64,000 nt of DNA from Symbiodinium natans. Lineage: Eukaryota; Sar; Dinophyceae; Suessiales; Symbiodiniaceae. The stretch is from contig CAJNDS010002525.1 of NCBI GenBank assembly GCA_905221605.1, forward strand, positions 145,001-209,000, written 5' to 3'. This document shows, one piece after another, positions 36,859-41,440 of the stretch (positions are counted from its first letter, which is position 1; every line of letters starts with the position of its first letter). A program made the position numbers and the translations under genes. The notes under the pieces were generated by a model that saw only the letters and a list, made by a program, of their open reading frames with translations, was not told the origin of the DNA and did no database searches.

Positions 36859-39800
36859 TTAGATGCGCCATTCGCATGTGATATATCTAGCACAGCATGC
36901 AAGAGTCTCAACCAGCCACAGCGGCAAAGCTCGTGCTGATTTTCCCACCTCATAGCTTGCTGCCCATGCTCTGCCCTCAAGCTCTGCTAAGAGTCGGACT
37001 GCATGCCGCCGCTGCTGGCCGCAAGCGCATGCGTTGAGCGCTGTGTTTACGGTGATGACGTCTCCCTGCATGCTTGCTAGCGACAGCGAAGACAGCAAGC
37101 TTAAGGTCTGCTCCCACTGCCCTTGACTCGAACAGACGGCCATGGCCGCGTTGAAGGTGATCACGGTACCTTAGTTGCTGAGTTCGTAAGCTGCCCAAAA
37201 GTGTACACTTTCAGCTCTATGGGAGATTCTAGTACCCCAGAAAGTGTAAACAGCGTACTGATTCAGCTACTAAGGTACTTTGCACAGAGGCGGCCGCCAA
37301 CTGCGAAAAGAAGTGAAGGGCTTGCTGCCACTGCTCACCCCCGGCAAAGGCGAAAAGGGCCACGTTGTAAGTAACCACCTCAGGAAGCTAAGGAGCATTA
37401 ATGGACTTCACCTTGGACATCTGAGCTTATCAGCTTATCCAAAACCTGAGCCATATAAATCCTAAACCCTAAACCCTAAACCCTAAACCCTAAACCCTAA
37501 ACCCTAAACCCTAAACCCTAAACCCTAAACCCTAAACCCTAAACCCTAAACCCTAAACCCTAAACCCTAAACCCTAAACCCTAAACCCAATCTCTGAGCG
37601 GCATTTGCTTCCAGACCCGAAGCGGCAAAGTCGCTCAGCAAGCGCAGCGCCAAGGTCCACTCGCCCCCCTTCTCGCACGCGCTCATGGCCTTGGCTGGAG
37701 GGGTTTTAGGGTTTCGGGTCTGGGGTTGAGGGTTTTGGGTCTACAGCGTCTAGGGTTTAGGCTTCCCCTAAGGCTCCAAGTATACGAATAACACCTACAT
37801 CGGGGTCTAAAGTCTACAGCCTTCTTTGGGGCTATTTTGGAGCCTTAGGGTTTGGGGTTTATATAGAGCCTATAGGGCTGGTACTCTGGGGCTTCTCCTG
37901 TAGGGTTGAGGCTGTCTGGGTTTGTAGGGCTTGTAGTATGGGGCTTATAGGGTTCACAAGGCTTGCAATGTTGCATCTGGTTTTGTGGGGGCCTCCTCTA
38001 TAAAGTCAATTTGGCTGGGTTGTTCAGGACCCCCTGACAGTTTGGGAGTCCCTGTTTAAAGTCAAATCGTCCGAGCGCCGTAAGAAAATTCCACGTGGCG
38101 CGCTTTTAAAAACGATTGCCGGGCATCGCTGCCCCTTCTAAACTTATCTAAACTCCTCCCTATTGAAATCATATAAACCCCTGGCAGCGTCTAAACAGGG
38201 ACAAATCCAGCCTCGACTGTTCAGGGGGGGGGGGGGCACAACAGTAAAGAGGGTACCCTAAACCCTAAACCCTAAACCCTAAACCCTAAACCCTAAACCC
38301 TAAACCCTACAACAGTAGGGTGTAGGATCTTGGGCGAGGCCGTTTGGCACCAAAGCTTTGGTCCTACGAAATCCGGGGACTGCCATCACCTGCCGGAAGA
38401 CCGTCAGCAATGCCGGCTTACGTTTGCTTCGTCTTCTAGGGTATAGGGTTTAGGGTTTAGGGTGTAGGGTTTGGGGTTTAGGGGAACTATTCATGGTTAG
38501 TTAACATGGGGATCATACTTATTTCCTACATGAAGATCAGGAAAATACCGCCAAGACAAAACTCCAGGATGTTCAATGGAAGGGACCGACGTGTATGTGA
38601 TCACGTTGCCCTCGATGCTGCCGCGATGAAGATCATCCAGCAACGACATCGCCCTCTGCCAATCGCTCGCCTTCTCACAGGCCTGAGTATGCTGCGTTTT
38701 GGGTTTAGGCTTTCGGGTTTAGGGTTGAGGGTGGCTTGGGCGTGTCAAGTGATTCTGTGCACAGCAGTGTGGGCCCTCCCTTTTTCAAGGTCCCTTTCGG
38801 CTTGTTCAGGGCGTCTAGTCTAGTAGTCTAGTCTTGAGTATGGAGTCCTCTCCCTGAAGCCCTACAGTATGCAGTATGCCCTATGTAGAACTTGCATTTC
38901 AAAAGGGAACTTAGTTAGAGAATGTTCCTTCGACCACATTCGGCGGCCCGGTTACAATTGAAGGAAGACTCCCTAAATAAAGGGATACCAGGATTCCTGG
39001 GTAGGGGGGCCCGTACACGCCGCATTCATTCGGGAGATAGATGGGGGTGTACGAAAGTAGGGGACCCCGAGTATAGACCCCCAAATAGTTTAAACAAGGA
39101 CCCCCGAATATCGTAAACCCCCATATCTCACTCGGCAGGTGTCCCCATGCCTTCATGTGCTGCCTCTTTGCGCGACAAGGCACGTTGATGGCTGCGCTGT
39201 AGGTGATGACATCTGCCTGAACCTATACGGAACTTGAAACCCTGGCAAAAATTGTAATTTTAGCTGTTTCTTAGGACTTAAAGTACCCACAAATTAAGAA
39301 AAATATGTCCAAGCATTTGTAAGGAACCTGCTTGAAGGCCATTCTTCCCAGAAGGTGGAGGGCCAGTGGCCATTGATCAGTATTCTTGCACAGACTTATG
39401 GCAGTGTTGTAAGTCACCACCGTGCCGCGAAGCCTGTGTTCTTCCAGTTCCGCAAGCAAGGTCAGTGCACTGACCCACTGATCGCCTTCTTCGCAGGCCC
39501 GCATTGCAGCATTGTACGTCACTGCATCTGCCTGCAGCCCATGGTCAGAGAGCTCGGCAAAGAGCGCTAGAGCACGTTGCCACTCCCCCCTGGTCCCCAG
39601 CGCGCTCATGGTCGAGTTGAAAGTAATGATGTTGGAGTTGATGCGCTCCCAGTGCATCCTCGACAGCAAGTGCAAGGCCAAGGACCACTGTGCACCCTTC
39701 TCACAGGCTGCAATGATGGAGGAGTAGGCGATGACATCTCGTCGCATGCGAGCTACCTCAAGCTCAGAGAAGAAATGCAGAGCGTGGTGCCACTGGTCAC

Positions 39801-41440
39801 CTTTCTCACACGCACTGATCACAGAGGAGAAGCTTATGAGCGTTGGCTGCAGACGGCCTTGCTGCAAAGAGGTGAAAACCTGAAGTGCCTGTGGCCACTG
39901 CATCCCCTTCTCACAGGCACTGATGGCAGCGTTGTATACCTTGGTAGCCCAGTAACCATGTATTGTAATAAGGGCACCCCTTTTTTGGCTAGCTTAGTTT
40001 ACAAGGGAACCCATAACCCATAACCAACAAAAAGAGGGCAAAGGGCACCACTGGGCCACCAAGATACGACTGCATCTCCTTGAATCTTCTTGCTCCGGAG
40101 ATCTGCAAAAAGCGACAGCGCAGCAGTCCACTCCGAGGCCTTCTCGCAGGCCGTGATGGCACCTAGACTGAACTTGGAACCCTAGCAACAGTTTTTAAAA
40201 ATATTGTTTCTTAGGAATTAAAGTACACAAAAAAGAAAAAATAATAAATGCTGTTTCTTAGGAATTAAAGTACACAAAAATCAGAAATCATTTCCAAGTA
40301 TCCCTAAGGCACTGCTGAAGATGATGGCATCCGATTGCAGTCTTTGGGCCTCCAGATCCGCCAGCAAATGGACAGCATGTCCCCACTGCTGTACTCCTTA
40401 AGTTGCTGAGTTCACAAGCCCCCCCCCAAAAAAAAATAGAAAGTGTACGCCTGCAGTTCTTTTAAAGGGATAAGAGTATCCAAAAAAAAGGGTGCAAAGT
40501 CTACTCACTGAGCTACCAAGACTCTCTTGCATGCAGATATGGCGGCACCAAAGGTGAAGACGTCGGCATGCAACCGAAGGCCTGGAAGCCTTTGCGGGCT
40601 CTTTTGGTGGCTTTCAAGAATTAATACATGGATTGTCAGAATTGAGCCCTGGGTCCCTTTTCAGAGGGAGGACCCGAAGCCCCTGAAACAGCCCTCAAAC
40701 CCCACACCCTGCTCCCACAACGCAAAATTTCCCGGGCTGATTTCCACACTCAGACCCTCCCTTCCCGCCCCTCGCCCCCTTCCCCCCCCCCCCCCCCCCC
40801 CGCCCGCCCGCCTCCCCTCCCCAACTGCTCCCACGACAATTGTTCGGGACAACATCCATCGTATTGTGGCAGTTGCTTCCCGACCATCTTCTTTATTCAG
40901 CGGGATCACACTAGCATCATCCTTCGACCATCGGCGGCAAGCTTAGGGAAAAAGAATACTTTTCAAGGTTCAGGGTTTAGGGTTTAGGGTTTAGGGTTTA
41001 GGGGCTCACGATTTATTAGGGTTTAGGTTTTGGGGTTTAGGGCTTAGGAGCGCATCCCGAGCCGCGACCCAGATCCAGTAATCAAAGCCCTGAACACTAG
41101 ACCATACACCAGTTTAGGGTTGGTTTAGGGTTTAGGGTTTAGGGTTTAGGGTTTAGGGTTTAGGGTTTAGGGTTTAGGGTTTAGGGTTTGGGGTTTGGGG
41201 TTTGGGGTTTAGGGCTTAGGGCTTCGGGCTTGTTAGAAGCCAGAAGCTCGCCCAGGAAGGCCAGCGCCAGTGCCCAGTGCTGCGCTTTGCCTCACTAGCT
41301 TGCACGTTTTTTTTTTTTTTTTGGGGGGGGGGTTATGAATGTTTTTCTTTTTTTTTTTGGGGGGGGGGGGGGGTAATGAATCAGCAGCTGAGTTGCCACA
41401 TGAATTCATCAGCGAATTCACCGACCGCATCGGCCGAGGG
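36859..41440 (-). CDS. PPR (pentatricopeptide repeat) protein, at least 11 exons, 5' end not resolved
   Basis: PPR proteins bind organellar RNA in a sequence-specific way. Exons in coding order: about 41440-41397, 41290-41248, 40589-40525, 40396-40313, 40162-40068, 39939-39328, 39222-39184, 38682-38587, 37689-37603, 37378-37279, 37169-36859 (stop). The reading frame is kept through all ten junctions. About 14 PPR motifs are visible, of the form (T/V)YNAAISACEKGxQWxxALxLL, spaced roughly 35 aa, for example VNSLMNSCGKAQHW, FGAAISACKR, YNAAMRACEEGDQW and VNTALNACACGQQ. The C-terminus ends CARYITCEWRI after the last motif. Introns: 41291-41396 GC, 40590-41247 GC, 40397-40524 GA, 40163-40312 GT, 39940-40067 GT, 39223-39327 GT, 38683-39183 GT, 37690-38586 GT, 37379-37602 GC, 37170-37278 GT; all end AG|G. 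A PPR-like island at 42466-42548 (TWQDSLGKLRDALAAGYEA) may be a further upstream exon. Organelle targeting cannot be judged without the 5' end. Confidence 0.9.
37170..37278 (-). mobile_element. Family-H introner, exact PPR intron (GT-AG)
   Basis: Terminal inverted repeats CTTAGTTGCTGA / TCAGCTACTAAG are flanked by GTAC on both sides (37166-37169 and 37275-37278). The intron starts with the duplicated GTAC (GT donor) and ends with the element's own AG. Removing it restores VQ-ST-VITFNAAM in frame. Confidence 0.85.
37379..37602 (-). repeat. PPR intron (GC-AG) made mostly of a telomeric array
   Basis: The intron contains a nearly pure CCCTAAA array (plus 37458-37588), which is TTTAGGG in the sense of transcription. 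The coding frame is intact across it (GLEAN-VVTYNVALF), which shows that telomeric sequence is carried inside a transcribed intron. Confidence 0.8.
37690..38586 (-). other. 897-nt PPR intron with a family-D element and telomeric repeats
   Basis: GT-AG intron between VITYTS and AMSACEKGGEW. It contains a family-D inverted repeat (37765-37850), variant GGG-rich repeats (37700-37760, 37850-37980), a G-run (38223-38236) and a CCCTAAA array (38254-38309). 37990-38220 has no recognisable feature. Confidence 0.75.
38683..39183 (-). other. Long PPR intron (GT-AG) holding a family-E element
   Basis: 501 nt between SAAIN and ACEKASDW. It contains a family-E inverted repeat (39045-39125). The remaining roughly 360 nt shows no recognisable feature. 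Unlike the shorter introns, its 5' bases (GTGC) do not match the following exon (GCCT). Confidence 0.75.
39223..39327 (-). mobile_element. Family-P introner, exact PPR intron (GT-AG)
   Basis: Shares the ACTTGAAACCCT-GCAA head and the GTTTCTTAGGA-TTAAAGTAC core with the 40163 copy, so two introns of one gene are copies of one element. It is flanked by GAAC duplications. The splice joins MAFKQ-VQADVITYSAAIN. Confidence 0.85.
39940..40067 (-). mobile_element. Family-G introner, exact PPR intron (GT-AG)
   Basis: Terminal repeats CTTGGTAGCCCAG / CTGGGCCACCAAG are flanked by ATAC duplications (plus 39936-39939 and 40064-40067). The duplicated GTAT is both the intron 5' end and the first bases of the next exon. 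The splice joins DAV-VYNAAISACEKG. Confidence 0.85.
40163..40312 (-). mobile_element. Family-P introner, exact PPR intron (GT-AG)
   Basis: The ends CTAGACTGAACTTGGAA / TTCCAAGTATCCCTAAG are imperfect inverted repeats flanked by GCAC on both sides. An internal direct repeat is visible: TTTCTTAGGAATTAAAG occurs twice. The splice restores IIFSS-AITACEKAS. Confidence 0.8.
40397..40524 (-). mobile_element. Family-H introner, exact PPR intron (GA-AG)
   Basis: Same terminal repeats as the 37170 copy (CTTAAGTTGCTGAG / GAGCTACCAAG), flanked by ACTC duplications (plus 40393-40396 and 40521-40524). On the coding strand the duplication reads GAGT, so the intron begins with GA. Splicing gives SACKR-VQQWGHAVHLL, as the PPR frame demands. 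Confidence 0.85.
40590..41396 (-). other. Two GC-AG introns at the 5' side of the PPR gene
   Basis: 40590-41247 starts GCTTC, the same five bases that open the next exon. It contains a long C-run (40781-40801) and TTTAGGG arrays (40975-41003, 41115-41215). 41291-41396 starts GCAA, again repeated at the start of the next exon, and is mostly two T-run/G-run pairs (41308-41331, 41350-41373). The 43-nt exon 41248-41290 between them completes a PPR motif (KAQHWALALAFLGE). Confidence 0.8.
41110..41220 (+). repeat. Telomeric array, G-strand, in a PPR intron
   Basis: About 15 TTTAGGG units passing into TTTGGGG units. Antisense to PPR transcription, unlike the array in the 37379 intron. Confidence 0.85.

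Follow-up and report, generated by a model that had tools for sequence, protein, structure and literature searches.

Four-base target duplications of introner-like elements as the probable source of splice donors in a dinoflagellate PPR gene

The GT, GC and GA donors of the introns predicted in a PPR gene of Symbiodinium natans are very probably best explained by introners with CT...AG ends whose donors would derive from the target of insertion, together with a splicing filter acting on G and with later decay. The underlying observation is real, lies well above chance and is mostly known already, and the mechanism, published in outline, fits young-looking introners. It traces, base by base, where young-looking introns of dinoflagellates can obtain a GA or GC donor, and it sets apart two steps that are often merged, namely the copying of four bases, which does not need G, and splicing, which would then favour the copies that start with G. 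The account has a limit, as the signature is gone in two conserved genes, which means that the mixed donors of the whole genome are not directly readable as insertion targets.

The PPR gene and its predicted introns

The window analysed here is a stretch of 64,000 nucleotides, bases 145001-209000 of contig C2213, and the genome searched comprises 759 Mb in 2,543 contigs. A dinoflagellate origin would agree with the TTTAGGG arrays, the GT/GC/GA donors and the AG/G acceptors. The PPR gene lies on the minus strand of the window: its stop codon is at 36859-36861, the exon with its end at 41397 extends further upstream, the alignment to the 35-residue PPR repeat, once spliced, spans 41291-36976, and Pfam matches to PPR_2, PPR_3 and PPR are found over 39274-39993. 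Junctions were predicted by a custom spliced aligner that used the 35-residue repeat as a profile (derived, per the initial reading, from repeats of the same gene), with AG acceptors and with donors either G-first or free, and that was blind to duplications and to CT. The AG acceptor was assumed throughout, and AG fits. With donors limited to G, introns 2-10 were recovered; with donors left free, eight of these nine boundaries were the same and only that of intron 2 changed. Intron 2 is therefore less secure, its start at 41247 being fixed by the 35-residue PPR spacing and a G donor, and an extra GCTTC occurs at 41240, seven bases downstream of that start. Intron 1 falls outside the spliced alignment and is based on the reading frame. 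The ten junctions are predictions, with GT as the predicted donor in six introns, GC in three and GA in one.

PPR gene, covered part: 36859..41397, minus strand; from spliced alignment, Pfam and reading frame
Predicted intron 1: 41396-41291, minus strand; start GCAACT, next exon GCAAAG; GC donor; GCAA repeated; inverted ends weak (7/14)
Predicted intron 2: 41247-40590, minus strand; start GCTTCT, next exon GCTTCC; GC donor; GCTT(C) repeated; long TTTAGGG-type array inside; inverted ends not clear (4/14)
Predicted intron 3: 40524-40397, minus strand; start GAGTCT, next exon GAGTAC; GA donor; GAGT repeated; element CTTGGTAGCTCAG...CTCAGCAACTTAAG; inverted ends 8/14; by eye like family B
Predicted intron 4: 40312-40163, minus strand; start GTGCCT, next exon GTGCCA; GT donor; GTGC repeated; family A element, 23-base core present twice
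Predicted intron 5: 40067-39940, minus strand; start GTATCT, next exon GTATAC; GT donor; GTAT repeated; family C element; inverted ends 13/14
Predicted intron 6: 39327-39223, minus strand; start GTTCCT, next exon GTTCAG; GT donor; GTTC repeated; family A element by its core, one end too diverged for scoring
Predicted intron 7: 39183-38683, minus strand; start GTGCCT, next exon GCCTGT; GT donor; tetramer unmatched; CT at 5-6
Predicted intron 8: 38586-37690, minus strand; start GTCCCT, next exon GCCATG; GT donor; tetramer unmatched; CT at 5-6; TTTAGGG-type arrays inside
Predicted intron 9: 37602-37379, minus strand; start GCCGCT, next exon GTGGTT; GC donor; tetramer unmatched; CT at 5-6; largely TTTAGGG array
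Predicted intron 10: 37278-37170, minus strand; start GTACCT, next exon GTACCG; GT donor; GTAC repeated; family B element; inverted ends 12/14

The tetramer at the intron start is identical to that of the next exon in seven of the ten introns, against a mean of 0.80 and a maximum of 6 in 200,000 shuffles, and the seven tetramers listed in the first-pass annotation of this DNA are all present at the predicted positions. That annotation had spoken of four to five matching bases: four can be upheld, and the fifth (introns 2, 4 and 10) is what chance leads one to expect where every element starts with a C. It had left unmentioned that CT occupies intron positions 5-6 in all ten introns, the three unmatched ones included, so that each intron is readable as a 4-base target followed by a CT...AG unit. 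The lack of a tetramer repeat in introns 7, 8 and 9 counts against the introner explanation. Taken as one set, the inverted ends of the ten introns give p = 0.02 against shuffled ends. When the window was scanned blindly for 4-bp repeats next to inverted ends, simple repeats swamped the signal, with 16 pairs at the right offset, 15 at +2 and between 4 and 6 (6, 5, 4) at each of the three remaining offsets; two pairs were CT-ended, at 37170 and 39940, and these correspond to introns 10 and 5.

Elsewhere in the genome, the best-scoring PPR matches among those listed are for the most part long reading frames without interruption, frequently in clusters (for instance on C613, C1535 and C2205) and unlike the intron-rich gene of the window, a ranking that itself favours uninterrupted frames.

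Element families and their target duplications

The first-pass annotation had proposed that 4-bp target duplications accompany the inverted ends, and these are indeed seen in three repeated families, in which element ends were placed by consensus motifs, independently of the duplication. Exact 4-bp duplications are present at 62 of the 128 scored copies, and the length of four is constant across families A, B and C. In particular, family A (PPR introns 4 and 6) has them at 37/67 copies (shuffle mean 1.24, maximum 6), the match per position amounting to 48-54/67 at the four positions and to 10-22/67 at eight neighbouring ones; family C (intron 5) has them at 13/31 (shuffle 0.58, maximum 4) and family B (intron 10; intron 3 is assigned to it by eye) at 12/30 (shuffle 0.69, maximum 6). 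The family A sample consists of 94 motif occurrences at 88 loci, drawn from 100 listed of 239 genome matches, with 27 dropped for a missing end or an element counted twice; for families C and B, 41 and 40 hits, the best-matching among the matches listed, left 31 and 30 scored copies after ten were dropped from each. With mismatches allowed, the true and the reversed pattern match the genome 7,627 and 56 times for the family C end, 2,716 and 31 times for the family B end, and 239 and 0 times for the family A core.

CT...AG ends are common to the three families. Similar copies are found in introns of different genes, as family A is seen in the PPR gene, in an ABCE1 gene and beside other coding-like flanks, the gene context of families B and C coming from PPR introns 10 and 5 only. 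Many element copies appear to lie outside exons.

Arrays of TTTAGGG or CCCTAAA occur within family C copies (L118, L126, L128, L129, L132, L137, L138, L142), at least four array motifs being counted in 8 of the 31 scored copies; some arrays begin directly after a G run of the element (for example in L118 and L142), as if telomerase-primed.

A predicted GA donor in an ABCE1 gene

At locus L047, a family A intron is located in an ABCE1 gene, ...GCGCA/GAACCTTAGG...GTATAG/GAACTACC... (slashes marking the predicted junctions). Its boundary pattern, GAAC...TATAG/GAAC, places the tetramer GAAC both at the intron start and at the next exon, and the donor must be GA because the acceptor is taken as AG. 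The predicted spliced peptide, 50 residues long, is matched over its residues 1-50 by a 50-residue segment in eukaryotic ABCE1 chains, and it aligns without gaps to the first ATPase domain of the two RLI chains shown in full; against the second ATPase domain the match is poorer, with a gap of one residue close to the junction. In both genes, PPR and ABCE1, splicing as predicted preserves the reading frame and the homology. The earlier proposal that the element provides the AG and the duplicated target the GT, GC or GA is thus supported in the PPR gene and in this GA-donor intron, given an AG acceptor.

Origin of the donor G

Among the 62 exact duplications, 16 have G first in the family orientation and 25 end in C, which corresponds to G first on the other strand, while 28 read G first on neither strand (A 13/37, C 9/13, B 6/12), indicating that insertion does not need G. 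In family A, the copies with coding-like flanks carry a G-first duplication on the coding-like strand in 13/19 cases, against 4/18 of the others (p = 0.008 by Fisher's test and p = 0.0004 by a rank test), where coding-like refers to a codon-usage score of the rejoined flanks with a cut of 12 chosen after the scores were seen, cuts from 8 to 25 giving the same direction. On the opposite strand of the same 19 copies G is first in six, and six of the 19 are without G first on the coding-like strand. The donors in the 13 G-first copies are GT in eight, GA in four and GG in one, the coding status of the GG copy being doubtful because its peptide has a stop. Stops are present within three of the top 20 family A peptides (L034, L070, L078), and a Pfam scan of ten coding-like peptides returned three weak hits under the curated cut-offs, to an ion channel, an ankyrin and a sugar transporter (ABCE1 not among them), and seven peptides had no hit. 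The donor had been described in the first-pass annotation as whatever follows the G at the insertion site; this stands for the second base, and the G itself seems to be imposed by a splicing filter, not by an insertion rule.

These data also bear on the idea that the matches merely combine chance with the usual splice consensus, that is, G at the intron start and G after AG. The consensus is visible in 66 introns of conserved genes described below, in 56 of which the first base agrees, 51 of these without the full tetramer. However, seven full tetramers in ten PPR introns, where shuffling yields 0.8, go far beyond it, and non-G targets around the same elements are also duplicated over 4 bp (e.g., TTAA, ATAT and TGAA in family A, and likewise in B and C), so that hardly any credence can be given to consensus and chance alone.

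Proposed mechanism

We infer that the introners are non-autonomous DNA transposons with CT...AG ends on both strands, which would insert in exons and duplicate 4 bp of the target. The spliceosome would then take out the first target copy together with the element, the AG that closes the element acting as acceptor and the first target copy as donor. The insertions surviving as introns would mainly be those whose target copy starts with G on the coding strand, and the donor would accordingly consist of this G and of the second base of the target, generating GT, GC or GA, while the one target copy that stays would restore the message exactly. Later on, the intron copy would drift and the exon copy would be held by the code, with loss of the match and a shift of donors towards GC.

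Conserved genes and the limit of the rule

The first-pass annotation had offered target duplication as a simple explanation for the mixed donors of dinoflagellates in general, and the conserved genes, three in number, do not bear this out. With the E. coli proteins MetH and GltB as references, spliced alignment provided 109 introns in metH, gltB_C1905 and gltB_C2445, of which 66 were kept as high-confidence introns and 43 dropped for fewer than 4/12 identities on a side or a length of at least 1,000 nt; the E. coli GcvP and ValS queries gave fragments only and were excluded. Exact tetramers were found in 0/23 introns of metH, 0/26 of gltB_C1905 and 5/17 of gltB_C2445. The overall count of five in 66 compares with a shuffle mean of 1.39 (p = 0.015), and the 0/49 of metH and gltB_C1905 with the 7/10 of the PPR gene (p = 3.5e-7). 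The donors of the 66 introns are GC in 37, GT in 14, GA in 14 and GG in one, whereas the next exon has T as its second base in 24, C in 22, A in 18 and G in two; the two mixes differ modestly (p = 0.03), donors being richer in GC.

The missing tetramers are read as decay of the intron copy after the birth of the intron, and selection for GC, or older families with other targets, may be alternatives. Another origin of the conserved-gene introns may be considered as well, since inverted ends are not above shuffles either in metH and gltB_C1905 taken together (49 introns, z = 0.70) or in gltB_C2445 (p = 0.40). CT is found at +5 in 15 of the 66 introns, against 2-10 at 13 other offsets, and 10 of these 15 fall among the 49 of metH and gltB_C1905; relative to a baseline of 4.6 per 66, this corresponds to p = 4e-5 for 15/66 and p = 0.002 for 10/49. 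A tentative and rather unlikely extension is that most introns of the genome, conserved genes included, are decayed CT...AG introners, in which the donor would have been set by a 4-bp duplication at birth, the intron copy later erased and the donors drifted or selected to GC, leaving CT at +5/+6 as the last trace. If true, donor recognition would rely on an element-borne motif more than on U1 pairing.

The same CT could instead be a functional splice signal of the organism that introners carry by happenstance. Its excess at +5 in conserved genes would suit such a signal, as would G at +8, present in 38 of the 66 introns. The spliceosomal RNAs point the same way: the three U1 loci read (16 genome matches) start with AAACTTACCTGG and the one U6 locus read (48 genome matches) retains ACAGAGA, so that the usual donor-pairing sequences are kept, yet the ten PPR donors can pair with U1 at only 4-6 of 9 positions, wobble counted, and another signal may help. 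However, in families A, B and C the CT opens the element end, and it does so in copies that were chosen whatever their gene context; we consider a splice signal carried by happenstance an unlikely though not negligible source of the mark.

At ~101-130 kb of contig C479, U6 and U1 snRNA genes form a tandem array, most units being ~3.8 kb apart.

Relation to known introners

Introners of Micromonas and Aureococcus, on which Huff et al. reportedly worked in 2016, are said to be DNA transposons that make introns, one splice site coming from the duplication; they belong to other lineages and have other duplication lengths. In Symbiodinium microadriaticum (Gozashti et al. 2022), introners are described, in the Fig. 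2B legend of PMC9860276, with a 4-bp target-site duplication, terminal inverted repeats, a carried 3' site and a 5' site from the duplication, and their families have 0-50% GC donors and 0-40% GA donors (PMC9860276). The duplication, the inverted repeats, the predicted origin of the two splice sites and the presence of GC and GA donors recur here. The first-pass annotation had presented donor-by-duplication as its own inference; the observation holds, and the novelty does not, as this was already published for S. microadriaticum (PMC9860276). Three of the present results appear to go beyond that description, namely the CT...AG ends common to three families, the CT at +5/+6 even where the tetramer is unmatched, and the absent signal in conserved genes, the families of the two species being likened by description.

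In Amoebophrya (Farhat et al. 2021), introner-like non-canonical introns are reported in the relevant passages of PMC7789003 to have direct repeats and 8-20 nt inverted repeats at their ends, and the present introns resemble them in these repeats, in the transposon-like spread and in belonging to the dinoflagellate lineage. In contrast, the splice dinucleotides of Amoebophrya are there given as without clear signature and U1 as undetected (PMC7789003), whereas the present introns fit the assumed AG and start with G, and U1 is found in the genome. For the dinoflagellate Polarella glacialis, too, introners are reported to have added introns recently (Roy et al. 2023, as summarised in PMC11453091), as seems likely here, and the same review gives GC/GA-AG introns as 25-74% in Symbiodiniaceae. 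Among the passages of open papers compared, none further was found that ties GA or GC donors to targets; Roy et al. 2023 lies outside that comparison.

TTTAGGG arrays and the thiolase introns

Introns might also arise without transposition, if staggered breaks were mended in a way that leaves short duplications and filler DNA such as TTTAGGG arrays. In line with this, repeats of 8-12 bp flank the introns of a thiolase gene, two of the three containing at least two TTTAGGG-type motifs, and such motifs are present in PPR introns 2 and 7-9. On the other hand, PPR introns 4, 5, 6 and 10 are members of repeated families whose elements have fixed ends and duplicate 4 bp, and arrays are also found within element copies, where they can be later additions. 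Repair without transposition is thus a quite improbable origin for the PPR introns, for which insertion of introners is preferred.

The thiolase gene lies at 10874-9775 of the window, minus strand, and direct repeats of 8, 12 and 11 bp span both junctions of three predicted introns, which suggests a second route to introns here, with both splice sites within the repeat. The first repeat reaches 17 bp if one mismatch is allowed, CT at +5 is absent from the three introns, and the boundary of the second intron shifts when donors are free. In predicted thiolase intron 4 (window 9683-9224), whose boundary is uncertain, three copies of a coding-like 21-base GAGGTGGTCATCTCAAAGGAC are present with TTTAGGG arrays between them. 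Introns with at least two TTTAGGG-type motifs amount to 19/30 in the PPR, thiolase and gltB_C2445 genes and to 0/49 in metH and gltB_C1905, a sharp gene-to-gene contrast that perhaps stems from intron age or from genome compartment.
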